A DNA stretch of 64,000 nucleotides from Zanthoxylum bungeanum (lineage: Eukaryota > Streptophyta > Magnoliopsida > Sapindales > Rutaceae): NCBI GenBank assembly GCA_019454045.1, contig SKCR01006517.1:1-64000 (forward strand). Reading direction: 5' to 3'. The notes under the pieces were generated by a model, which worked only from the letters and a program-made list of their open reading frames with translations, was not told the DNA's origin and made no database searches. Shown here piece after piece: positions 10,680-48,964 of the stretch (position 1 is the stretch's first letter; every line of letters starts with the position of its first letter). A program made the position numbers and the translations under genes.

Positions 10680-12000
10680 AGAAAAAGTAGAAGTTTTTAA
10701 ATCCATCTGTTTGACCTTGAAATTGAAAAAACTATCAGATAGTTGAGAAGAGAGAGAAGATCAAAAAGCACTGATCAATAAGAATAATCAAGAACCTAAA
10801 CCTTTGGAAGTTGCACCACCATTTCCCATTCGAGACAGAACAATTTCGGTGGTTGACGGCTTTATATCATGTATTGTACTTCCTCTATTACCTACAAATG
10901 TGTGTGACATCAAAACATGCATTTAAATGATACAATAATCAGCTCAGGGGAAGTGCAACTGAAGATCCCAATGCCCTTATCAGCAACTTCCTGGAAGTTT
11001 GTGGCACATTCAATTACAACCGAGTGCCAGAGGAAGCAATGCATCTGCGTGTGTTCCCATATTCCTTGAAAGACAGAGCTAAAGCTTGGCTCCATTCACT
11101 ACCAGTTGGTTCCATCACAACTTGGTACACTATTGCCACCAAATTCCTTTCAAAATACTTTCCACCAGCCAGAACAACAAAATTCAGAAATGACATCACA
11201 TCATTTGTTCAACATAACTCAGAATCCCTCTACGAAGCATGGGAAAGATTCAAAGAATTGCTCAGAAAATGCCTTCACCGTGAGATTGTAAAGTGGCTAT
11301 AAGTCCAAACCTTCTACAATGGTCTTTCTGGACTAATGATAACCACAATAGATGCTACTGCTGGAGGAGCATTAATGGAAAAAATCAGGTGATCAGACCT
11401 GGGACTTAATTGAAGAAATGGCTAACAACTATTCCTTGTGGCCAACAGAGAGAAGCGTGATCCACCGAATATCAGGAATCCACGAAGTAGGGGCCAACAC
11501 AGTTGTGAATGCCAAGCTGGATCAAATATGAAAATGCCTGGAAACTCTTTGCATGCATGATAATACTGGATCTACAAGTTCACCATATGGAGGAGTACTA
11601 GAGGCATAATCTTACAACCAACATGATGTGACTGTGAACTATGTCAGCATCTTCAACAGTCAGGGAAACAATCCAAATTCTAATACCTACAACCTAGGGA
11701 GCAACATTTCAGAGTAAAGAGACAATCCACCACCCGAATTTCAACAGTAAAATAAATGCCAACAGTATGAAAAAGAATCAGGAATAACAGATTTGATTGC
11801 CAATATGAAAAAGCAAGAAGCTAAATACGACGCTTTAGCAGATGTGGTTCAAAATCAATCAGTATCTTTAAAGGCACTGGAGAATCAAAAGGGATAACTG
11901 GCTAATGCTCAGAGTTACAGGCCACAAGGTACCCTTCCTAACAATACTGAACCAAATCCAAGGACCAGAGGGAATGAGCAATGCCAAGCCATCACTTTGA
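10677..12000 (+). pseudogene. gag: Athila-1 gag remnant
   Basis: Gag of an Athila-type Ty3/gypsy element, the capsid precursor. The start ATG at 10677 is stopped after seven codons. The capsid core is best preserved in the frame at 11024-11302: FPYSLKDRAKAWLHSLP...SITTWYTIATKFLSKYFPPART, the standard plant gypsy gag motif. Other parts read in other frames; later parts (11340-11960) show the Q/N-rich gag C-terminal region. Stops at 10921-10923 and elsewhere exclude function. The counterpart in element C is at 45614-46902. Confidence 0.85.
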
Positions 12001-34170: not shown

Positions 34171-34870
34171 GGATCACTTATCGAGGCTCAAGAATGGAGA
34201 AACAACTATCAATGAAATGACAATCGAAGGAACTTTTCAAGATAAATAGTTGTTTACCATCAAACAATAGGATGTCCCTTGGTATGCTGACTATGTAAAC
34301 TACATAGTATCTCGAAAATGGCCATTGGAATGGACACCTTAGCAATGGAAGAAATTCTTCAAAGAAGTCAAGCATTATGTCTGGGATGAGTCGTACCTGT
34401 CCAAATGTTGTGCTGATCAATTACTGAGATGTTGTGTTCCACATGAGGAGGTCAATAGTGTTTTGTAGCATTGTCATTCATCACCATACGACATACACTT
34501 CAGCGGAGATAAAACTACAGCCAAAGTCCTACAGTTAGGTTTGTTCTGGCCCACTCTATTTAAAGTTGCTTATTTATTTTCTCTTCAAAGTGACAGGTGC
34601 CAGAAAACGGGAAATATTTTGAGGAGAAATGAAGGAGCTCTGTAAAACATTCTGGAAGTAGAGATATTTGATGTATGAGGGATTGATTTTATTGGACCCT
34701 TTGTTCCATCATTTGAAAACCTGTACATACTAGTTGGAATAGACTACGTCTCCAAATGGGTTGAAGCAATACCAATGCAATCAAATGATTCAAAAGTGGT
34801 CACAAAATTCCTTAAAAAGAATATTTTCACTCGCTTTGGAACACCTCGGGCAATTTTCAGAGATGGTGGT
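34171..34870 (+). pseudogene. pol: Athila-2 integrase, truncated
   Basis: Frames include the zinc-binding part (SSPYDIHFSGDKTTAKVLQLGLFWP...RCQ) near 34485-34600 and the core: D in GIDFIGPFVPSFENLYILVGIDYVSKWVEAI and TRFGTPRAIFRDGG near 34680-34868. It stops in the core because element C starts at 34871. Stops occur within. Confidence 0.85.
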
Positions 34871-35789
34871 TGACCGGTGCGTAATCACACGCGTATAACG
34901 CAAGCGCACGTATTGTTCAAGTAGTATAAATAGTATAGATCCCACGAGGACTTAATACATAATCTATTAATTTTATGAGGTCAATTGATTACTAGTATCT
35001 TACAGGTTGATTGATTTATTTTGAAATGGCGATGATTTTAAACTTAAAAACAAGTAATTAAAATTTGCTCGAAAATAAGTTTAAGAAAATTCAATATTTA
35101 TAAATTATCTAGGGTTGTGAATCTTTCCAATATCTTTTAAAAAAAGAAGTGATTATTTCATGTTTGTGTAATATATCGGTTTACTAACCTGAAACACGTA
35201 ATTATGCGAAAGCCTCTGTCGATGGTCAGACGTAAATATCCAGTATAACCCAATTGAACCATATGGCTATATCAACCAAATTACCTGGATTCATTAAGAT
35301 TAAGTTCCAATTAAGGTTATCCCCGCCCAACAGGTATATGTCTATCTTGTAAGGAAATCTATTAAAGGGTTATCTATCCTCAAGGAAGATCGAAAGCTAT
35401 TATGTCTAAGGCTGAAATATAAAATTCTTTTGTCAAGTATATTTTAGATTTATCATATCAATCTTATTAATGGCTAGTTAACAAGACGCATTAAGCTTAA
35501 GACTTAATAAGTAAACCTTTAAATTACCCAAACTATAAAATAACCCCTTATAAACCGATGGTATTAGAATTCATCACAATCCCAGATAACTAACTTAGTT
35601 TGGACACATAACTAGGGCTAATAAAAACTTAAAAGAAAAAGACATAAAATAAATACTGAAAAGTAAATTGCTGTAAAGTAAATACTGAAAAGTAAAATTA
35701 CAATAAAATAAAATGCTAGGGTTAAGGATCTACTTTTACCACTACTAATTTAGATATCTCCCTTAATATAATATATTAACTTGTGATAA

Positions 35790-36000
35790 CATTACCAACC
35801 AGCCATTTAGGCGGTAACCCGATAAAGTCAAATTAAGTCCAACCAGCCATTAAGGTGGTAATATTTGTCCATAAACCTGCCAAATAGACGGTAAATTACC
35901 AACCGACCAATCAGGCGGTATCCTTGCTTAGTCAAATTAAAATCAATTTAATATCAATTACCACCGGCCAATATAGAGGTATCCTCATTAAGTTAAATTT
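35790..36000. repeat. Degenerate repeats with ccaaccagcca...ggcggtaa
   Basis: About five imperfect units, each with a ccaacc(a/g)gcca-like and a ggcggta-like part, spaced 40-60 bp apart. The same array is in the LTRs at 47960-48150 (same strand) and 49080-49220 and 9661 (opposite strand), so it is a common trait of these Athila LTRs. Confidence 0.7.
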
Positions 36001-36262
36001 TAAATAGTGAATATGTTATAATTAAGGGAGATTAATCTAAATAGCAGTAATAAAAGTTTTACCTTTCACCCTAGCAGTGGGAAGTTACCTCCTCATCTTG
36101 AATAGTAAAAACGGAAAAAAGTAAAGAAAGTAAATTATTATTACAAAATGTAACTAAAATTAATTACAAACTGAAATTAAAATAAACTAGATATGAAAAC
36201 TCCCTATTTACATCAGAGAATTCAGAGAGAAAAGTGCATCTGAAATCAGAAAAATGAGCTGA

Positions 36263-36269
36263 ATTTATA
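36263..36269 (-). promoter_or_regulatory. TATA box of element C LTR
   Basis: Minus strand TATAAAT, some 65 bp downstream of the last G-box. The same box is at 48428-48434 in the other LTR. The position in the LTR suits a U3 promoter. Confidence 0.5.
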
Positions 36270-36333
36270 AGTCTCGGCAAGGAAGCCGTATTACGACGCG
36301 CATGATTAGTGGCGTGGAACGCGGAGAGCTTGA

Positions 36334-36581
36334 CACGTGGCAGTGGATAAGGTTATAAGGTGACACGTGGCACATTGTGATTGGAAGCTGAATGATTGCC
36401 TAAAGTGGCAATTATTGATGATTAACTCAATAATTGTGCTGACATGGTAGTGATGTGGCATTAACGTGGTGATGACATGGCACTGACGTGGCGTCACGTG
36501 GCGAAAGTGATTGTCGGCACCATAGGATGATGACACGTGGCACGACTCACGTTAGTAGATGGCTGTGATGTTGCACGTGGC
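36334..36581. promoter_or_regulatory. G-box/ABRE cluster in element C LTR
   Basis: Five exact CACGTGGC motifs (36334, 36364, 36495, 36534, 36574) plus several one-base variants (gacatggca, gatgtggca, aacgtggtg) within 250 bp. CACGTGGC is the core of plant G-box/ABA-response elements bound by bZIP factors. It lies upstream of the TATA box on the transcribed strand. The right LTR keeps only two exact copies (48719, 48760); others there changed CG to CA or TG. Confidence 0.55.
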
Positions 36582-36856
36582 ACAGCACATGTTGGCAAAG
36601 TGAAACTTCTCAGATTCTGACATGTGGACTCGGAGCACGTTAGCAAATTTGCAGCGTACGTTAGACGTCGCGAAGCACCAAATGACCAAAATGCCCTTTT
36701 GTCTGTTTTTCACTGTTTTGGCTCCAAATCACCTCCAGACTGTCCTGAAACTTTATTTATCTACAAAATAACACAAAACTATTCACAAAACTCAAGAAAC
36801 TATACATAATATTAGGTTAAATGAGTGAGAAATATTGATATAATTATCACTCATCA

Positions 36857-38032: not shown

Positions 38033-38199
38033 ATAAGACATTGTCCTCAATGTCTTCAACAATAGAAAAAGAGTTTAGAAGTTAGTACCTGGTTAGCTGG
38101 AAATCTACATGAAAATTAAAGGTTAAGATCCAGATTAATCCGACGCTTCTTACTACGATCATCCTCAGACCATTTAATCTTGGAAATGATAGGGTCAAT

Positions 38200-38769
38200 T
38201 TATGGTTCAAAGGCTAAGATTTGGTCAATTAGATCCGAGGTAGTTCTGGTAGTAAAAAAGAGTTCTTTCATAGGTTTTGTCACGAACCCATTTCTCCGGG
38301 CATCATGAAGAAATACACAAAGAAAATCATAAAATCCTTCAATGTTGTACAACCCAATCGGTTTCTGGAATATGTTCAGGTTCGCCGAAGATAGAACTAT
38401 AAAAATTTCCTCCAATGTACCCAAGCCACCTGATAAAGTAATAAAAGCATCAGCACAATTAGTCATTTCTACCAGTAGTTCAGACATATCTGGCATAATT
38501 AGTTCTTCTCCGTTTGATGGTCCGATAAGATTTACCTCCACCAAGGGTTTTGGGATGATTCCTAAGACTTGACTGCCTCCTTCTTGTACAGTCTTTGAAA
38601 TGATCCTTATAAGTCCAAGATTACCTCCGCCATATACTAAGTGCATATTTCTTTCAGCTATGTTTCGACCTGATTCCTGTGCTGTTTCTATGTATTGTGG
38701 TTTAATACCAACACCAGTACCGTAAAACACACAAATATTTTCAACTCATCTTCTTGAAGTGACTTCCAT
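38200..38769 (-). pseudogene. LOG-type (TIGR00730/'lysine decarboxylase'-fold) homologue in retroelement
   Basis: LOG proteins release active cytokinin bases from riboside monophosphates. From ATG 38769 the frame is 189 codons with one in-frame TGA at codon 8 (38748-38746); the 176 codons from GTG 38730 are uninterrupted. It starts ENICVFYGTGVG, with the Rossmann motif LVYGGGNLGL (about residues 44-53), GIIPK, DMSELLVEMTNCADAFIT and SGGLGTLEE (113-121). The last matches the family signature PGGxGTxxE except P to S. The Arg expected shortly before DAFI is Asn here, so activity is doubtful. Length fits a slightly short LOG (usually ~200-230). It sits between the viral-like ORF (39102-39569) and the LTR, on the coding strand of element C. 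A splice-acceptor-like cactcttttcag is at about 38833-38822. Homology is firm; capture by the element is inferred from position. Confidence 0.85.
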
Positions 38770-38835: not shown

Positions 38836-39101
38836 TAAAATAATAGCACTAGTACCTGCCAAATGACAATTATTAGTTAAACAGTAAAATAAATCGTGAT
38901 AGTCAAAAAGGTTTGGATCCTGTCGGAGAAAATAAAAGAAAACACTAAAAAAAAATCACAATTATTAGGAAAAGACAAAGAGATATAATATGTACAAGAA
39001 AAGTAGCGGCTTGATTGACGTCTATGCATCATGGACAAGCTTCCCATCCAATTTTCTTATAAATTGGCAAACAGGGTTTTTTGGAGTTAGATTCCCAAGA
39101 C

Positions 39102-39569
39102 TTAACTGTTGTCTTTTTTTTGGAATTGTGTATATAACACACGAATTTCATGATACACATATCCACTGGGATACATCTCAAGAGTTTTAGATATGTCATC
39201 CAAAGACTCCCTACTCAAGCCATCCCTAATGAAATTAATCTTATCTTCGCGGTTATCAGACACAATTCCTAAATAACGACAACGAGTATCACAAAACAAG
39301 TGAGCACATTTATAGCATACACCCATTCTTTTGGCTCTTCTCTTTTTATCATAGGTACTTCTTCCTAAACCAGGCAAATGTGAAATAAAAATGTTAGAAG
39401 ACTCACCCGCCAATCAAACCCGTGCTTCAATAGTCCAACAAATGTCAGTAGGAATAACTTTGATCATCAGTAGTCTCATCCGTTCTAAGCGAGCTTTGTA
39501 GATTTTCATCAGAGATTTTTGAGGGAGATTAGGAAAATATTTGTGAAGAATTGTGAGAGTTTCTTCCAT
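39102..39569 (-). pseudogene. Carlavirus-type cysteine-rich nucleic-acid-binding protein-like ORF
   Basis: From ATG 39569 there are 51 codons, one in-frame TGA (39416-39414), then 103 codons in the same frame to 39102. Just after the stop lies GRSTYDKKRRAKR, then a Cys cluster C-x2-C-x4-C-x3-C (codons at about 39317-39279) and a segment GIVSDN...INFIRDG. A 'TDIC' phrase comes before the stop. This order (DIC segment, GRS-Y plus basic Arg/Lys block, Cys cluster) is what I know from carlavirus cysteine-rich proteins (Pfam Carla_C4), which bind nucleic acid and act in silencing suppression. The Cys spacing differs from the viral one and both ends are longer, so the domain may be altered or inactive. 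It lies directly after integrase, in env position, preceded by a splice-acceptor-like site. What else it could be: an unrelated small zinc-finger protein. Confidence 0.5.
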
Positions 39570-39619: not shown

Positions 39620-40297
39620 CAAATCACAATATATACATAAATTGCATGGGTTGCCTCCCAACTAGCGCTAAGTTTAATCGTCGTCAGCTAGACGTGACTG
39701 CCCGAACGTTTTGCTGGATATAAAAATGTGACACTTTCTTTTTTTCACTCAAATGATTCTCCCCAGTATTACTTGACACACTGACTATTAACCTTGAATG
39801 TTTCATTGGTGTTGGGATCCAGTAACTCAACAGCTCCATATGGTAAAACCTGAGTGATCACAAATGGACCTGACCACCTTGATTTCATCTCTCTAGGGAA
39901 AAGTTTCAATCTCGATTTGTACAACAACACCTACTGCCTTGGTTCCAACTATTTGCACACTATTTTTTGGTCATGCCATTTTTTGGTCTTTTCTTTATAC
40001 AATCTGGCATTCTCATAAGCCTGTAGGTGAAATTCCTCCAATTCATTGAGTTGGTGAAGTCTTTTCTCTCCTGCAGCTTGTGGATCAAGATTCAACTTCT
40101 TTAGTGCCCAGTACGCCTTGTGTTCAAGCTCAACTGGCAGATGGCATGCTTTCCCAAACACCAATTGATATGGGGACATACCAATGGGTGTCTTTTAAGC
40201 TGTTCGGTAGGCCCATAATGCATCATCGAGTTTTATAGAACATTCCCTCCTTATATATCCAACAGTTCTCTCCAATTTTCTTTTGATTTCCCTGTTT
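39620..40297 (-). pseudogene. pol: Element C integrase, C-terminal part
   Basis: Minus strand reads [12 protein letters not shown]...[19 protein letters not shown] then an open 76-codon segment (39949-40179) [32 protein letters not shown]...[14 protein letters not shown], followed in shifted frames by SRLKLFPREMKSRWSGPF and YGAVELLDPNTNETFKVN. These are the end of the Athila integrase core and its C-terminal domain. Separated from the core by the solo LTR at 40303-42206. Stops at about 40197 and further down. Confidence 0.9.
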
Positions 40298-40763
40298 GAA
40301 ACTGTAGGCACTGCATTTTTACATAAGACCCAATGATGAGCCTCATATGGAGGCACTACCCTTTAAGTTGCGGAAGCCATGGGAAACGGACGTCGGAAGG
40401 GAAAAATCAATATCTTGTTGGACTTAATTCGTTGCTTAGCCTCGGGTTCACTCGTTGGACCTCTGTTTTAAAATTTATCCTTGGCCCAAAACCCTCGTAA
40501 TCTACACCAAGCCCACACACCACCAAGCCACATGCCCAAGGCCATTCAATCCTATCCAAAAAATATCAACACATTAAACACATGTTAAAATCTAAATAAA
40601 TTGCCTTCATAATTCAATCAAATCCCATAAATCCCTTTCCTAAATTAAATCAAATCATCTTCCTAATTGAATGGATCTTTTCCTTATGACACACTAATTA
40701 AAAGATATCCTCTATAATTGCATGATTTTTCCTTCCCGTACGAGGAAAGCCCTAACCCTCTCC

Positions 40764-40770
40764 TATAAAA
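40764..40770 (+). promoter_or_regulatory. TATA box of solo LTR
   Basis: tcctataaaaagaga is a good plant TATA context, placed 461 bp into the LTR. It suggests the LTR's transcription direction is +, opposite to element C. Confidence 0.5.
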
Positions 40771-41860
40771 AGAGACAGAAACCCAACCTTGAGACCGCTA
40801 GACATTCACGCCCAAAGCAACGAAGGGTAGCCTCCCCATTGCCGTGAAAAGAGATCCCCATTAGCCATCCCCTGTCGTGAAAACACCCATCCAACAGCCC
40901 TCATTCACACCAAACAGCAACCAAGCCCTATCCCTAATTGACACAAAACCAACCCATAAACTCACCCTCAATCACTGAAACATTCCACCCCAAAAACCCC
41001 CATTAATCGCAAAAACTACAGCCCTATATAACCCATTTATTACTATGAAATATAGCCAAAACACCATCCCTATATTGCCACAAAATACTACCAAAAACCC
41101 CCTTCAAGACCGCACAAACTGCATCCCGAAACCCACAAACTACCCTGCAAAACTGCACTCAAAATCGTAAACCAGTCCCCCCAAAAAACTATACCCAAAA
41201 CCGCAAGCCAATCTACCAAAAACTACAGCCAAAACCGCAAAACAGTCACCAAAACAACGACCAGAAAACCACAGCAAAACAGAGAGAACAGCAGCCCAAA
41301 ACAGTGAAACAGTGAAGGAAAATGTTGAACCAGCGAATCGGAGGAGTTGTGGAGCATTAACCCTTCCGACGGCAGCATAAGACACTTCCAAGAGGCGACT
41401 TAAAAGGTAAAACCTGAGGGCACCTTTTTATTTATTTTCATTCATCTTTTCAGTTATTATTATTTCTTCGTATGCTTCTTGTTGGGTTGTGTATGCTTGT
41501 TGTGTGGATGAATGATCTTGTGCTATCTCTCATGGTATATTGGATGGAAACCCAGACGTAAATTTCGTAGCCGAATTCGAATGGATGGTAGTGCGGTCTG
41601 TACTTAGGAAACAACTCCACGTACTACTTAAGAAACGCACATATTTCATTTTGTCTAATCTTTTGTTTATCTATTATTTACTAGAAATATCACGTTATTT
41701 CCATGCATGATTTAGTTATTTCCTTCACGTTAGAAATTTGATTATCTCTCTTTAATATTTATGGGTAGACAATTATTTATTTATATTTTTGTGATTTATC
41801 GATTTAAAGTATTCGTGAGATTGTGTGCTTACCGTTATTCCGACTTACTTTTATGTATGA

Positions 41861-41952
41861 AAACTTAGATATAGGTTGTATGCAAACATAAATATAGGTT
41901 GTATGCTAACTTAGATATAGGTTGTATGCAAACTTAGATATATGTTATTCTT
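41861..41952. repeat. Four tandem 23-bp repeats
   Basis: The unit (a/t)aacttagatataggttgtatgc is repeated at 41861, 41884, 41907 and 41930 (last copy diverging), inside the solo LTR. Confidence 0.85.
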
Positions 41953-42206
41953 GTGTATGTATGTTGCGTAGACTTGGTTATATTATTGCATAAATCCGTT
42001 CATTACAAGTGGCATAAGTAAGGGACCATTATGAACCCAACGATTTGAGGTCTTCCCTTACGAGGGGTGAGTGCGGCCTTAAATCATTTCCCAGTTCACA
42101 CTGGGTGGTGACTACATTATTCTCCGGTTTAGTCCCCCGCGGGCTACTCCATACTCCTAACCGGGCCGATAGCCTAGAACAGCGTCGCTGATTTCTGTGT
42201 CCTACA

Positions 42207-42740
42207 GAAACTTCAACCCGTCCATTTGACTGTGGATGGAAAGTAGTGGCAACCTTGTGAGTAACTTCGTATTTGGATAGAAGTGCATCAAAATATCTAT
42301 TGCAGAAATGTGTGCCACCATCACTGATAATTGCACGAGGTGTTCCGAATCGAGTGAAAATGTGCTTTTTAAGGAATTTGATCACCACTTTTGAATCATT
42401 GGATGGTAGTGCAATTGCTTCAACCCATTTGGAGACGTAGTCTAAGCAACCAGGATGTACAGGTTTGGAAATGATGGCACAAAGGGTCCCATAAAATCAA
42501 TACCCCACACATCGAATATCTCCACTTCCAAAATATTTTACAGTGGTCCTTCATTTCTCTTCGAAATATTTCCCGTTCTCTGGCACCTGTCACATTGAAG
42601 AACAAAAAAATAAGCATCTTTAAAATGAGTGGGCCAGAACAAACCTGACTGTAGGACTTTTGCTACAGTTTTGTTTCTGCTGAAGTGTCCGTTATATGGT
42701 GATGAATGACAGTGCTACAAAACACTGTTGACCTCCTCTT
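42207..42740 (-). pseudogene. pol: Element C integrase, zinc-binding and core part
   Basis: Minus strand core: VIKFLKKHIFTRFGTPRAIISDGGTHFCN...LLSKYEVTHKVATTFHPQSNGRVEVS (second catalytic Asp in SDGG; the Glu position would be the E of VEVS/SNGRVE). It is cut by the solo LTR. Upstream, frames at 42420-42740 hold the KNVWDIDFMGPF-type first Asp region and the CxxC zinc part. Stops break the frame near 42470 and 42600. Confidence 0.85.
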
Positions 42741-43400
42741 GTGGAACGCACCGTCTCAGTAATTGATCAGCACATCGTTTGAACAGATATGGTTCATCCC
42801 AAACATAATACTTGACTTCTTTGAAGAACTTCTTTTGTTGCTGAGTTGTCCATTCCAACGACCATTTTCCAGACACAATGTAGTTGACATAGTCAGCATA
42901 TCAAGGGACTTCCTATTGTTTTATGGCAAACAACTGTTCATCTGGAAAAGTTTCTTTAATTGACAGTTCTTTGCCTACTGTTTCTCCATTCTCGAGCCTC
43001 GATAGATGATCTACCACTTGGTTTTCTGTCTCTTTCCTATCTCAAATATCCACATCGAATTCTTGTAGAAAAAGTATCTAACGGATCAATCTAGGTTTAG
43101 CATCTTTCTTCATGATCAGATATTTGATTACTGAATGATCTGTGTAGACCACCACTTTGGGACCTAGCAGATAAGAGCGTAATTTTTCAAAAGCGAACAC
43201 AACTGCTTGCAACTCTTTTTCAGTGGTTTTGTAGTTGAGTTGAGCTTCATTCAAAGTTCTGCTGGAATAATAAATTGTGTTGAAAATTTTTACTTTGCAT
43301 TGTCCTAAAACCGTACCTACAGTAAAATCACTAGCATCACACATCACCTCAAATAGAATGGTCCAGTCTGGTGATACTATGATAGGGGCAGAGACCAACT
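42741..43400 (-). pseudogene. pol: Element C RNase H
   Basis: A 106-codon frame at 43078-43398: [96 protein letters not shown]. The CDAS and TEKEL catalytic regions are intact here, the best preserved RNase H in the window. It then loses frame towards integrase. Confidence 0.9.
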
Positions 43401-43401
43401 T

Positions 43402-44721
43402 CTATTTTAAGATATCAAAAGCTTCTTGGAATTCTTTGGTGAAGTCGAAAGGAACATCCTTCTCCAGAAGATTGCAAAGAGGTTTTGCAATCTTGGAAAA
43501 GCCTTTGATAAATCTCCTGTAAAATCCTACGTGTCCAAGAAAACTCTGAATCCCTTTGACAGATGTAGGTGGAGGTAAATTTTCAATTGTCTCGATCTTT
43601 GCTTTATCTACCTTGATTCCTTTTGTGAGATTCGATGTCCAAGAACAATTCCTTCTTGCACCATGAAGTGGCATTTCTCCCAGTTGAGTACCAGGTTTGT
43701 ATCTTCGCACCTTTGTAACACCTGTTCCAGATTTTACAGGCAGTGGCCAAAAGAGTCTCCAAACACAGAGAAGTCATCCATGAATACCTCCATACTCTGT
43801 TCCAATATATCTGATATGATGGCCATCATACAACTCTGAAATTTGGCTGGGGCATTACATAATCCAATGGCATCCTGCGGAAAGCAAAAGTACCATAGAG
43901 ACATGTAAATGTCATTTTCTCCTGATCTTTTGGGGTGTTAGCAATATGATTATACCCTGAATATCCGTCCAAAAAGTAATAGTAATCATGTCCCGCTAGT
44001 CTGTCCAGCATTTGATCAATGAAAGGAAGCGGAAAATAGTCATTCCTTGTTGCTTTGTTCAGCTTCCGATAGTCCATACATACTCTCCATCTAGTCACCG
44101 TTCTTGTTGGAATCAGTTCGTTTTTTTCATTGCTGACCACAGTAATTCCTCCTTTCTTCGGCATACACTGCATAGGACTCACCCAACTGCAATATGAGAT
44201 GGGGTAAATGATGCCAGTATCCAACCATTTGATGATTCTTCTTCTTTACGACTTACTTTATGATTGGATTGAGTCTCTGTTGATGCAGGCATACACTGCA
44301 TAGGACTCACCCAACTACAATATGAGATGGGGTAAATGATGCCAGTATCCAACCATTTGATGATTTCTTTCTTTACGACTTTCTTACAAAATGATGGACT
44401 AATACCTCGAATGTCTGTCATAGTCCAGCCAATGGCTTTTTTATGTTCTCCTAACACTCTTAGTAACTTTTCTTCATGCTCCAATGTTAGAGATGAAGAA
44501 ATAATAAGAGGTAATTCAGAAGAGTTTCCAAGAAATGCATACCTAAGATGACTCGGAAGTAATTTCAGCTCCAATTGCGGTGCTTCTTCTATCGAAGGCT
44601 TGATTTGATCTTTCTTCGGGTGTTCCAGATATTCAACTGGTGTTTTCGTTTTGAAACGAAATGGCTTGTCAATATAGTTGATACATTCCATAATTTCAGC
44701 ATCTAACTCGCTATTTGTCAT
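43402..44721 (-). pseudogene. pol: Element C reverse transcriptase
   Basis: RT in several frames. The N-terminal part at 44179-44721 includes AIGWTMTDIRGISPSFCKK and VVKKEIIKWLDTGIIYPISYCSWVSPMQCMP. The frame at 43826-44224 has GGITVVSNEKNELIPTRTVTRWRVCMDYRKLNKATRNDYFPLPFIDQMLDRLAGHDYYYFLDGYSGYNHIA. The active site FMDD is intact at 43784-43773, and the thumb/connection GHVGFYRRFIKGFSKIAKPLCNLLEKD is at 43402-43710. A tandem duplication with period 128 (44161-44375) repeats the start of RT and breaks the protein. Confidence 0.9.
44161..44375. repeat. Tandem duplication in RT, period 128 bp
   Basis: The block gcatacactgcataggactcacccaact...ccaaccatttgatgatt occurs at 44161 and again at 44289, nearly identical. 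It duplicates codons of the RT N-terminus, so it arose after insertion of element C. Confidence 0.85.
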
Positions 44722-45410: not shown

Positions 45411-46902
45411 ATGAATCGAGCAAATTGTTTGTCCAGTTTGTTTTTCTAAATACGTTGTGGAAAAGGTGGAGGTGGAGTGATCTGTTCTTTTTATTTTTCC
45501 TTTGCTTCTTTTTCTTCCATCTGTGGAACTTCTTCAATAGTTGCCTTGATTCCAACATCTTTGTTGATTTCAGTACTGCTTTTCAAGGTTATGGCTTTAC
45601 ATTGCTCATTCCCTCAGTTCCTTGGATTTGACTCTATGTTGCTGGGAAGATTTCCTGGTGGTCTGTAACTCTGAGCAATGGCTAGTTGTCCAATCTGATT
45701 CTCCAGTGCTTTGATAGAAGCTGATTGGTTTTGAAACATAGCTTTATATTTTTTTAACTGAGCTAGCACTTCTGCCATTACTTGTTCTTTTCCATGCTCC
45801 TGGCCTTTTTTCTGTTGCTGGAATCCAGGTGGTGGATAGTTCTTTTGCCCTGAATTGTTGCTCCACGAAAAATTGGGATGATTCCTACACCTTGGGTTGT
45901 AGGTGTTTGAATATGGATTGTTCCCCCGTCTATTGAAATTATTGACAAAATTCACTGTCTCTTCAAGTTGGTTTGGCTCTGATGCTCCTCCAAAAGATGA
46001 ACTTGTGGCTCTAATATTGTATTGCGTGCTGAGAGTCTCCATGTATTTGCATATCTGATCTAACTTGGCATTAACTGCTGTATTTGCTCCAATTTCATAA
46101 ATTCCTGTAATTCTTTGAATCATGCTCCTTTTGTTGGCCACAAGGAATTGTTGTTGGCCATTTCTTCTATTAGATCCCAGGCTTGATCTTCTCATTTTGC
46201 CATCAAAGTTCCTCCATCAGCAGCATCAATTGTGGTTCTCATCAATCCAGAAAGTCCATTATAGAAAGTTTGGATTTGAAGCTATTTTGGAATCTCATGG
46301 TGTGGATATTTCTGGAGCAAATCTTTATACCTTTCCCAAGCTTCATAAAGAGTTTCTGAATCTTGTTGTATAAAGGATGTGATGTCATTCCTCAGTTTTG
46401 CAGTTCTGGCAGGTGGAAAGTACTTTGCAATGAATTTGGTGGCTAGAGTGTTCCAAGTGGTGATGGAACCTGCTAGTAGTGAATGTAGCCAAGCCTTTGC
46501 TCTATCTTTCAAGGAATATGGAAAAACTCACAATCTCATTGCTTCTTCAGGTCCTTGGTTGTAATTGAAAGTGCCTCAAACTTCCAGGAAGTTGCTGATG
46601 TGGGCATTAGGATCTTCAATTGCATTTCCTCCAAACTTAACTAACTGTTGAATCATTCGAATGTAAGTTTTGATGTCACCCGTATTTACTGGTAAGGGAG
46701 GAACTACAATATAGGAAATGAGGCCATCTACCACCAGAATGGTTCTGTCTCGAATAAGAATTGGTGGTGCAACCTCCAAAGGTTCACGTTCCATCTTAAC
46801 AATTACTTCTTGGCCTTATCGCCTTTCCCTTCTTAACTGTCTGATAGTTCTTTCAATCTTTAGGTCAAACGGATGGATTTCAAAGCTTCTGGTTCGTCTC
46901 AT
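45411..46902 (-). pseudogene. gag: Element C gag
   Basis: The start ATG at 46902 is in the same context as in Athila-1 (gttctcagacactacatgag). The pieces are 46576-46794 (REPLEVAPPILIRDRTI...FGGNAIEDPNAHISNFLEV), 46282-46512 (MKDRAKAWLHSLLAGSITTWNTLATKFIAKYFPPARTAKLRNDITSF) and 45614-46195 (gag C-terminal, Asn/Gln-rich, NYPPPGFQQQKKG). It has the capsid core motif of plant gypsy gag. Frames are broken by a few stops and indels, so it is the least decayed gag here but not functional. Confidence 0.9.
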
Positions 46903-47011
46903 GTAGTGTCTGAGAACCTGAAACACAAGAAAATAAAAACAAAAAGTAAAAAGAAAATTAGATACATGTAAAGGTATCTAACCCCAAAATTAATAGCGAA
47001 AGATAAATAAA

Positions 47012-47029
47012 TCCCTGGCAACTGCGCCA
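47012..47029 (-). other. Primer-binding site of element C (tRNA-Asp type)
   Basis: Minus strand tggcgcagttgccaggga has two changes from tggcgccgttgccgggga. It lies 6 bp from the LTR end, as in Athila-1. Confidence 0.85.
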
Positions 47030-47035
47030 AAAACT

Positions 47036-48964
47036 TGATCGGTGCGTAATCACACACATATAACGTAAGCGCACGTATCGTTCAAGTAGTATAAAAAGTA
47101 TGGATCCCATGAGGACTTAATACCTAATCTATTAATTTTAATAGGTCAAATGATTACTATTATCCAACAGATTGATTGATTTATTTTGAAATGGTAATGA
47201 TTTTAAACTTAAAAACAAGTAATTAAAATTTGCTCGAAAATAAGTTTAAGAAAATTCAATATTTATGAACTATCTAGGGTTGTGAATCATTCCAATATCT
47301 TTTAAAAAATGAAGTGATTATTTCATGTTTGTGTAATATATCAGTTTACAAACCTGGAACACGTTATTATGCGAAAGCCTCTGTCGATGGTCGGACGTAA
47401 ATACCCAGTATAACCCAATTGAACTATATGTCTATGTCAACCAAATTACCTGGATTCATTAAGATTAAATTCCAATTAAGGTTACTCCCGCCCGACAGGT
47501 ATATTTCCATCCTATAAGGAAATCTATTAAAGGGTTATCTATCCACAAGGAAGATCGAAAGCTATTAAGTCTAAGGTTGAAACCTAAAATTCCTTTGTCA
47601 AGTATATTTTAGATTTACCATATCAATCTTATTGATGGCCAGATAACAAGACGTATTAAGCTTAAGACTTAATAAGTAAACCTTTAAATTACTCAAACTA
47701 TAAAATAACCCCTTATAAACTGGTGATATTAGAATTCATCACAACCCCAGATAACTAACTTAGTTACTATACATAATTAGGGCTAATAAAAACTTAAAAT
47801 AAAAAGACATAAAATAAATACTGAAAAGTAAACTGCGTTAAAGTAAATACTGAAAAGTAAAATTACAATAAAATAAAATGCTAGGGTTAAATGATATACT
47901 TTTACCACTACTAATTTAGATATCTCCCTTAATATAATATATTAACTTGTGATAACATTACCAGCCAGCCATATAGGCGGTAACCTGATTAAGTCAAATT
48001 AAGTCCAACCAGCCATTAAGGCGGTAATATTTGTCCATAAACCTACCATATAGGCGATAAATTACCAACCGACCAACCAGGCGGTATCCTAACTTAGTCA
48101 AATTAAAATAAATTTAATATCAATTACCAACCGGCTAATGTAGTGGTATCCTCATTAAGTCAAATTTTAAATGGTGAATATGTTATAATTAAGGGAGATT
48201 AATCCAAATAGCTGTAATAAAAGTTTTACCTTTCACCCTAGCAGTGGGAAGTTACCTCCTCATGTTGAATAGTAAAAATTGAAAAAGTAAAGAAAGTAAA
48301 TTATTATTGCAGAACGTAATTAAAATTAATTACAAACTGAAATTAAATAAACTAGATATGAAAACTTCTTATTTACATCAAAGAATTCAGAGAGAAAAGT
48401 ATATCTGAAATTAGAAAAATGAGATGAATTTATAGGCCTCGGTGAGGTAGCCACATCGCGACGTGCAGCTCGCGTCACGACGCTCGTGATTATCGGAGTG
48501 GAACATAGAGAGCTTGACACATGGCAGTGGATAAGGTGATAAGCTGATATGTGGCACGTTGTGATTGGAAGCTGAATAATTATGCTTGCGTGGCAATTAT
48601 GGATGATTAACTCAATAATTGTGCTGACGTGGTAGTGATGTGGCGCTGACGTGGTGATAATGTGGCACTGACATGGCGACATGTGGCGAAAGTGATTGTC
48701 GACACCATATGATGATGACACGTGGCACGGCGCACGTTAGTAGATTGTTGTGATATTGACACGTGGCACGATGCATGTTAGCAAAGTCAAACTTCTCATA
48801 TTCTGGTATGTGGACCCGGCGCATGTTAGATGTCGTGATGCGAGCTGCGCGTCGTGACGCACCCAATGACCAAAATGCCATTTTGTCTGTTTTTCACTAT
48901 TTTGGCTCCAAATCACCTCCAGATTGTCATGAAACTTTATTTATCTACAAAATAACATAAAACA
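47036..48964 (-). repeat. 5' LTR of element C, truncated at outer end
   Basis: Starts tgatcggtgcg. It matches 34871-36776, then breaks at aaaataacataaaac, so the last ~80 bp are lost. It carries a TATA box (48428-48434), a decayed G-box cluster (about 48510-48770) and the ~60-bp repeats (47960-48150). Small frames at 48326-48881 follow the G-box repeats and are not genes. Confidence 0.9.

Follow-up and report, generated by a model that had tools for sequence, protein, structure and literature searches.

Extra open reading frames (aORFs) are common in plant LTR retrotransposons, and most are of unknown origin. Sense aORFs have been described as env-like, while antisense aORFs are described, in the accessible portion of the same article, as having no similarity to other transposable elements or viruses (PMC7264820). 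The presence of LOG (cytokinin riboside 5'-monophosphate phosphoribohydrolase) genes in plant gypsy elements has already been published (PMC9289625, citing Steinbauerova et al. 2011). The available part of that article reports that the LOG family controls cytokinin activity, and that a YgdH domain occurs in Citrus elements and, with a looser filter, in Populus elements (PMC9289625).

A second group of relevant systems is found in RNA viruses. According to the available sections of three articles that deal with the functions of viral cysteine-rich proteins (CRPs), these proteins suppress RNA silencing (PMC7588395, PMC12172455, PMC3689765). The CRP of potato virus H has a finger of the form C-X2-C-X9-C-X4-C and a mass of 10.87 kDa, as given in the accessible text (PMC3689765). 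Related CRPs are described, again in the part available, from Alphaflexiviridae and Betaflexiviridae alike (PMC12172455), which suggests that the domain is old in viruses. Viral sequence can also be integrated in plant genomes, an example from the accessible text of one study being a betaflexivirus replicase-like sequence in cucumber (PMC3136472). A literature search of titles and the opening parts of abstracts, with most subscription papers outside its scope, found no earlier description of an NABP gene in a plant retrotransposon. We think it probable, with some reservation, that the NABP-like ORF described here is the decayed remnant of a virus-derived accessory gene that an abundant Athila-type Ty3/gypsy family carries as a standing component.

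The NABP-like ORF and its host element

The window, a 64,000-nucleotide stretch of Zanthoxylum bungeanum DNA, contains an NABP-like ORF (39569-39102, minus strand) between the integrase and the 3' LTR of a Ty3/gypsy element. The features of the element are listed in element orientation; L003 is a contig from the database search described below.

47035..48963, minus strand: 5' LTR, a direct repeat with its ends compared
47009..47030, minus strand: putative primer binding site just inside the 5' LTR, from the sequence
46282..46527, minus strand: gag piece (Pfam Retrotrans_gag, 1.5e-18)
43826..44245, minus strand: reverse transcriptase piece (Pfam RVT_1, 8.5e-06, 26 bits, under the 29.6 cut-off)
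43078..43401, minus strand: RNase H (Pfam RT_RNaseH, 3.1e-27)
42029..42496, minus strand: integrase core (Pfam rve, 5e-11)
39778..40302, minus strand: C-terminal part of the integrase, found in pieces by phmmer (query: L003 integrase)
39417..39569, minus strand: NABP-like ORF, first piece, from the ATG to an in-frame TGA (family profile positions 1-51, E 1.5e-19)
39102..39413, minus strand: second piece of the NABP-like ORF, carrying the basic block and the four cysteines (matches positions 53-153 of the family profile, E 3.6e-48)
39028..39123, minus strand: C-terminal piece of the NABP-like ORF, out of frame with the other two (matches positions 150-181 of the family profile, E 1.5e-11)
38203..38745, minus strand: LOG, main piece (Pfam Lysine_decarbox, 3e-27)
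38119..38199, minus strand: LOG, C-terminal piece beyond an in-frame stop (LOG profile positions 191-217, E 1.8e-06)
34870..36856, minus strand: 3' LTR (the repeat match covers 34870-36779; judged by eye, the LTR probably starts near 36856, following a purine-rich tract)

The LTRs are two direct repeats of ~1.9 kb each that are 89.3% identical, and together with gag, reverse transcriptase, RNase H and integrase in gypsy order on one strand they identify a Ty3/gypsy element, the reverse transcriptase match being under the Pfam cut-off. The divergence of the LTR pair (K80 0.1015 over 1892 columns) corresponds to 3.9-7.3 My at assumed substitution rates of 1.3e-8 and 7e-9. At 48963, the 5' LTR is missing its first ~75 bases relative to the 3' LTR. 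The element appears to be Athila-type, a name taken from the original prediction, the putative primer site and the look of the integrase end. The primer binding site may resemble the Athila-type tRNA-Asp site, and the LOG-carrying elements of Steinbauerova et al. 2011 are reportedly Athila-like. About 1.7 kb (about 40303-42028) lies between the integrase core and the C-terminal part, possibly as a later insertion or rearrangement within the element. The Rfam family snoR71 (RF00097) scores above its gathering score at 46292-46398 (plus strand), antisense to the gag piece, and at 11180-11286 (minus strand); the two stretches lie in mutually inverted copy regions, and the Rfam family may overlap retroelement sequence.

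The original prediction, made from the letters and their translations, had pointed to an ORF after the integrase with a GRS-Y motif, a basic block, four close cysteines, a GIVSDN...INFIRDG segment and an in-frame TGA (39416-39414), all of which are present. A family profile built from 64 full-length public relatives matches the ORF on both sides of the TGA, and the next-best stretch of the window reaches an E value of 0.16. The C-terminal ~30 residues are matched in another frame, indicating that the window copy is also frameshifted near its 3' end. A search of both halves with the Pfam Carla_C4 family had been proposed as a check, and its outcome is divided between them. The second piece matches Carla_C4 at 1.1e-05 (25.8 bits; gathering cut-off 20.9) and Viral_NABP at 3.7e-07 (30.8 bits; gathering cut-off 23), whereas the first piece alone matches no viral Pfam family.

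A captured, intronless LOG ORF, overlooked in the original prediction, lies downstream of NABP on the same strand. Its Lysine_decarbox domain and LOG-like sequence, with a match to PDB 2a33 (Arabidopsis At2g37210) at 2.2e-40, identify it as a LOG phosphoribohydrolase. The window LOG has two stops, one of them a few codons past the likely ATG, ahead of the main piece; NABP, LOG and pol are all broken in this copy. The motif PGGxGTxxE is present in 94 of the 109 listed LOG relatives of at least 170 aa. Among 16 open-frame LOG copies from the same genome it is present in just 5, suggesting that many LOG copies are probably inactive, and in the window copy SGG replaces PGG. A quick tree of 65 LOG proteins, rooted on two Arabidopsis LOGs, places the window copy and these 16 copies within a 24-row group (SH-aLRT 99). 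Outside this group lie the named proteins from Populus, Xanthoceras, Diplodiscus and Reevesia, which may be element-encoded or host genes. A scan of a viral-contig collection with LOG returned two loci, at 38% identity over 47 residues, which were not taken as viral relatives at the sensitivity of the scan.

Copies in the same genome and relatives in other plants

The original prediction described a gene acquired in the env position. The position was borne out by the sequence, but the ORF is a standing gene of a widespread family and not a single acquisition by the window copy. The genome (3.96 Gb in 51,709 contigs) yielded at least 150 scored matches to the NABP piece, window copy included, the weakest at E 3.5e-52; 138 of the 150 have no internal stop and 12 have one. 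Only the best candidates were scored, and ranking by NABP score favours intact ones; the number of first-look candidates, 35,522, should not be taken as the number of copies. Sharing of the ORF by other copies had been proposed as a check, and it extends to relatives in other plants.

Sixty of the 150 matches, picked by hand and exclusively from those free of internal stops, were examined. Integrase lies upstream of NABP in 58 of the 60 fetched copies, and LOG lies downstream in 58 of 60. Every single-unit copy with all three genes (55/55) has the order integrase-NABP-LOG on one strand, with median gaps of 178 bases (integrase-NABP) and 259 bases (NABP-LOG); this count omits L013, which holds two units, as well as two copies lacking an integrase match (L031, L054) and two lacking a LOG match (L058, L069). 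The ends of the gene are equally regular: each of the 46 NABP pieces extending to profile position 1 starts with ATG, and each of the 56 extending to profile position 181 stops within three codons. NABP is intact in 31 of the 60 fetched copies and LOG in 16, figures that are not genome-wide rates because the copies were picked from NABP-ranked rows without a stop. In L013 (G000:C23952:427200-431600), NABP-LOG units stand in tandem with a period of ~1.86 kb; tandem-unit matches on this contig lie at 422010, 425722, 427580 and 429437, and matching 300-base stretches of two units are 99% identical.

Relatives in other plants were found by a first protein search, which returned 15, and by a profile search, which returned 1011, of which 120 were listed. 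The named relatives among those listed come from Populus, Xanthoceras, Acer and Rhamnella, which represent three rosid orders (Populus; Xanthoceras with Acer; Rhamnella). Across the 129 relatives in hand, the commonest length is exactly 182 aa (54/129). In the Rhamnella gene model P0216, an integrase end that by eye is like that of L003 is fused to NABP, and in L003 itself (DAIEQH010000041.1) an open integrase frame precedes an intact NABP. No LOG match was found in the ~1 kb beyond the L003 NABP, so the NABP-LOG pair may not be obligatory. The L003 contig is assigned to a Candidatus Nomurabacteria MAG, but its sequence looks like that of a plant retrotransposon, and it is likely a contaminant. 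In a quick NABP tree, separate groups are formed by four Rhamnella rows (99), a Populus-holding set (94) and Xanthoceras-Acer (87), with 59 of the 125 inner forks open.

These data bear on the simplest viral explanation, that carlavirus RNA integrated by chance into or near a retrotransposon and gave rise to an ordinary endogenous viral element. Under this explanation one would expect a plant genome to contain a domain of viral type, and such integrations are known, as in cucumber (PMC3136472, in the portion available). However, the same place and order recur in 55 of 55 counted copies, NABP follows integrase in L003 and in P0216 also, and the ORF is under purifying selection (see below). Moreover, the ~210 bases in the window from the last integrase match to the NABP start are too short for a coat-protein gene. 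We regard an ordinary endogenous viral element as extremely improbable, and a single endogenous-virus insertion was rejected on the shared position and order across copies.

Some copies have lost much of pol. In 21 of the 60 (e.g., L014, L021, L026, L041, L045, L068), the integrase match starts only at residue 345-352. The ~950 bases ahead of the truncated integrase align mutually in 19 of these 21 (the reference L014 and 18 others), while L064 aligns with L014 over ~560 bases and L070 over only ~150. The aligned bases resemble the gag-protease region of the window element (45720-44732). This shared alignment suggests that most of the 21 share one pol deletion, and the copies with a truncated integrase are likely non-autonomous deletion derivatives that keep NABP and LOG. 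Both genes are matched in all 21, with NABP intact in 11 and LOG in 6. The 3' block travels with the deletion derivatives; that it benefits them is an unproven reading.

Purifying selection on NABP

A test for purifying selection had been proposed with the original prediction, and the outcome agrees with it. Among 31 open NABP copies the median dN/dS is 0.35, against 0.94 and 0.77 in the wrong frames, and the ratio of sums is likewise 0.35, against 0.90 and 0.79. The integrase C-terminal part (20 copies) gives a median of 0.35 (wrong frames 0.79 and 1.34) and a ratio of sums of 0.35 (0.79 and 1.33). LOG (16 copies) gives a median of 0.39 (wrong frames 0.60 and 1.05) and a ratio of sums of 0.38 (0.60 and 1.03); with one wrong-frame control as low as 0.60, the case for selection on LOG is weaker. 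Pairs with dS <=0.02 were excluded, leaving 464 of 465 in-frame pairs for NABP, 119 of 120 for LOG and 190 of 190 for integrase. Bootstrapping over codons and random disjoint pairs gave ranges of 0.25-0.49 for NABP, 0.29-0.56 for LOG and 0.29-0.50 for integrase. Selecting open frames can lower dN/dS slightly; the wrong-frame controls were taken from the identical copies. NABP is under purifying selection.

Two comparisons within these sets add detail. The NABP dN/dS drops as dS rises, from 0.53 in the closest quarter of pairs to 0.26 in the most distant, a trend that drift in dead copies and constraint on an active lineage would produce. Deletion derivatives and fuller copies, which are small sets, give dN/dS of 0.40 (11 copies) and 0.37 (13 copies) for NABP, 0.53 and 0.29 for integrase, and 0.39 and 0.56 (5 fuller copies) for LOG.

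The NABP-LOG stretch could instead be a passenger block that hitch-hikes without being of use to the element. The broken state of the window copy and many others is consistent with this idea, as are the carriage of the block by deletion derivatives too (21/60) and the loss of PGGxGTxxE in 11 of the 16 open LOG copies. Nevertheless, a passenger gene is difficult to reconcile with an in-frame NABP dN/dS that is far under its wrong-frame controls and equal to that of integrase, or with an identical length of 182 aa in so many of the relatives in hand, and we consider the passenger explanation improbable.

Viral affinity, possible function and known systems

The similarity of NABP to viral proteins is consistent across the family. 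Carla_C4 is matched by 34 of 35 full-length relatives and Viral_NABP by 33 of 35 (E <= 0.1), and among 17 rows that include short fragments each of the two families is matched by 10 (E <= 1). The similarity spans about residues 38-125 and is strongest in a core of 30-40 residues. In the three proteins tested (P0142, P0153 and P0189), a 40-residue core alone matches a viral Pfam family, while neither the first 66 nor the last 85 residues match one by themselves. Adding the flanks to the core increases the Viral_NABP score. For P0142, the core scores 15.5 bits, the core with the N-terminal flank 22.8, the core with the C-terminal flank 23.6 and the whole protein 28.5; the corresponding values are 24.1, 27.6, 29.3 and 31.7 for P0153, and 20.4, 25.1, 31.4 and 33.8 for P0189. 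In all three the extended match stays in register, from about profile position 116 to 207. We interpret the pattern as remote homology to the broader Viral_NABP family, extending over about 85 collinear residues.

The evidence for a specifically carlavirus protein, as the original prediction had it, is mixed. The matches to Viral_NABP and Carla_C4 support such a protein, but the Carla_C4 profile match stops near the first two cysteines, whole P0153 falls below the Carla_C4 cut-off (18.3 vs 20.9), and adding the flanks brings no gain in Carla_C4 score in any of the three proteins tested. The finger C-X2-C-X4-C-X3-C is present in 116 of the 129 relatives in hand and the published carlavirus finger C-X2-C-X9-C-X4-C in none; among the 31 open copies of the same genome, 28 have the basic block and 29 the C-X2-C-X4-C-X3-C finger. 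This difference in cysteine spacing counts against close kinship with carlaviruses, and the length of 182 aa also departs from the 10.87 kDa given for the potato virus H protein in the accessible text of PMC3689765.

Structure and further database searches contributed little. The AlphaFold model of P0142 is poor (pLDDT 57.5) and too weak for use, and a BFVD fold search with it produced 0 of 28 hits at E <= 0.001. The top-ranked, non-significant hit was the silencing suppressor of the carlavirus chrysanthemum virus B (E 2.3), and the sixth-ranked, also non-significant, was a vitivirus NABP (Grapevine virus H; E 5.9). At the sensitivity of the search, the viral-contig collection contained no match to the NABP piece or to the NABP alignment A3, and a phage collection contained no match. 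PHROGs searched with three NABP relatives gave just weak matches to families of no helpful function, and PDB searched with A3 gave nothing up to E 10. A host zinc-finger family had been suggested as a possible better match, and none was seen in Pfam scans of the window piece and the relatives.

The most serious alternative to a viral origin is that NABP arose long ago in plants or in retroelements, as a small basic zinc protein belonging to Athila, and that flexiviruses took their CRP from it or that the core is convergent. The concentration of similarity in the basic block and CX2C fits such an origin, as do the finger spacing, the indifference of the Carla_C4 score to the flanks and the size of the plant family. 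Its named members come from three rosid orders. On the other hand, in the three proteins tested, each flank adds collinear score to Viral_NABP. For the window piece, the viral families outscore every cellular Pfam family; among the scanned relatives, no cellular family is matched by more than a few, except for DUF4637, which recurs weakly. The occurrence of CRPs in both Alphaflexiviridae and Betaflexiviridae, as described in the available part of PMC12172455, also argues against a plant or retroelement source. We consider such a source a doubtful but serious candidate. The NABP domain is likely derived from a carla-, viti- or allexivirus-like RNA virus, and transfer from virus to element appears the likelier direction. 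Its entry probably took place through reverse transcription or through template switching, well ahead of the copies now present. The ORF is real and more widespread than the original prediction claimed, and it is less firmly viral: a conserved, selected aORF next to LOG.

By analogy with viral CRPs, NABP is probably an accessory gene of the element that acts on silencing or transcription. It is possible that NABP helps the element as CRPs help viruses, by weakening small-RNA silencing, by entering the nucleus as a transcriptional activator, or both. LOG would raise active cytokinin, and together the two proteins would favour cells that divide, in which a new insertion has access to the germ line; the element would gain from reduced small-RNA control and from cell division. 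A tentative extension of this model is that an element lineage in several rosid orders kept a gene from a flexivirus-like virus, a silencing suppressor and transcription activator, in some lineages paired with the host-derived LOG, as a two-gene host-manipulation module that blunts small-RNA control and promotes division, and that was retained even by derivatives without most of pol.

An aORF that is both conserved and under selection and that encodes a viral CRP domain would make gene flow between RNA viruses and retrotransposons traceable, and would point to counter-defence of the viral type in retrotransposons. The adjoining LOG makes a joint function in silencing and cytokinin directly testable. 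A PF01623 or PF05515 annotation in a plant genome need not mean viral infection or recent viral integration.

There are clear parallels with the flexivirus NABP/CRP proteins (PF05515 Viral_NABP, PF01623 Carla_C4; chrysanthemum virus B p12, potato virus H CRP): profile matches exceed the gathering scores, and the element protein has a basic block followed by CX2C and two more cysteines. Unlike the potato virus H CRP, as described in the accessible text, the element NABP is typically 182 aa with the finger C-X2-C-X4-C-X3-C; and unlike the carlavirus CRP gene, which overlaps the 3' end of the coat-protein gene, it follows integrase (58/60 copies). The LOG-carrying gypsy elements of PMC9289625 likewise have LOG within a Ty3/gypsy element, but here NABP lies between integrase and LOG, and the main text of that article contains neither "carlavirus" nor "nucleic acid binding". 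The AlkB-carrying Ty3/gypsy elements of orchids in the accessible part of the same article provide another parallel, since the captured domain is also found in flexiviruses and AlkB was proposed to matter in host control of transposable elements; the domain, host and element all differ (PMC9289625). Finally, the ORF resembles the aORFs of PMC7264820, as presented in the available text, in being a sense ORF between pol and the 3' LTR with many family copies. One important difference from those aORFs is that the element ORF matches a viral nucleic-acid-binding domain.
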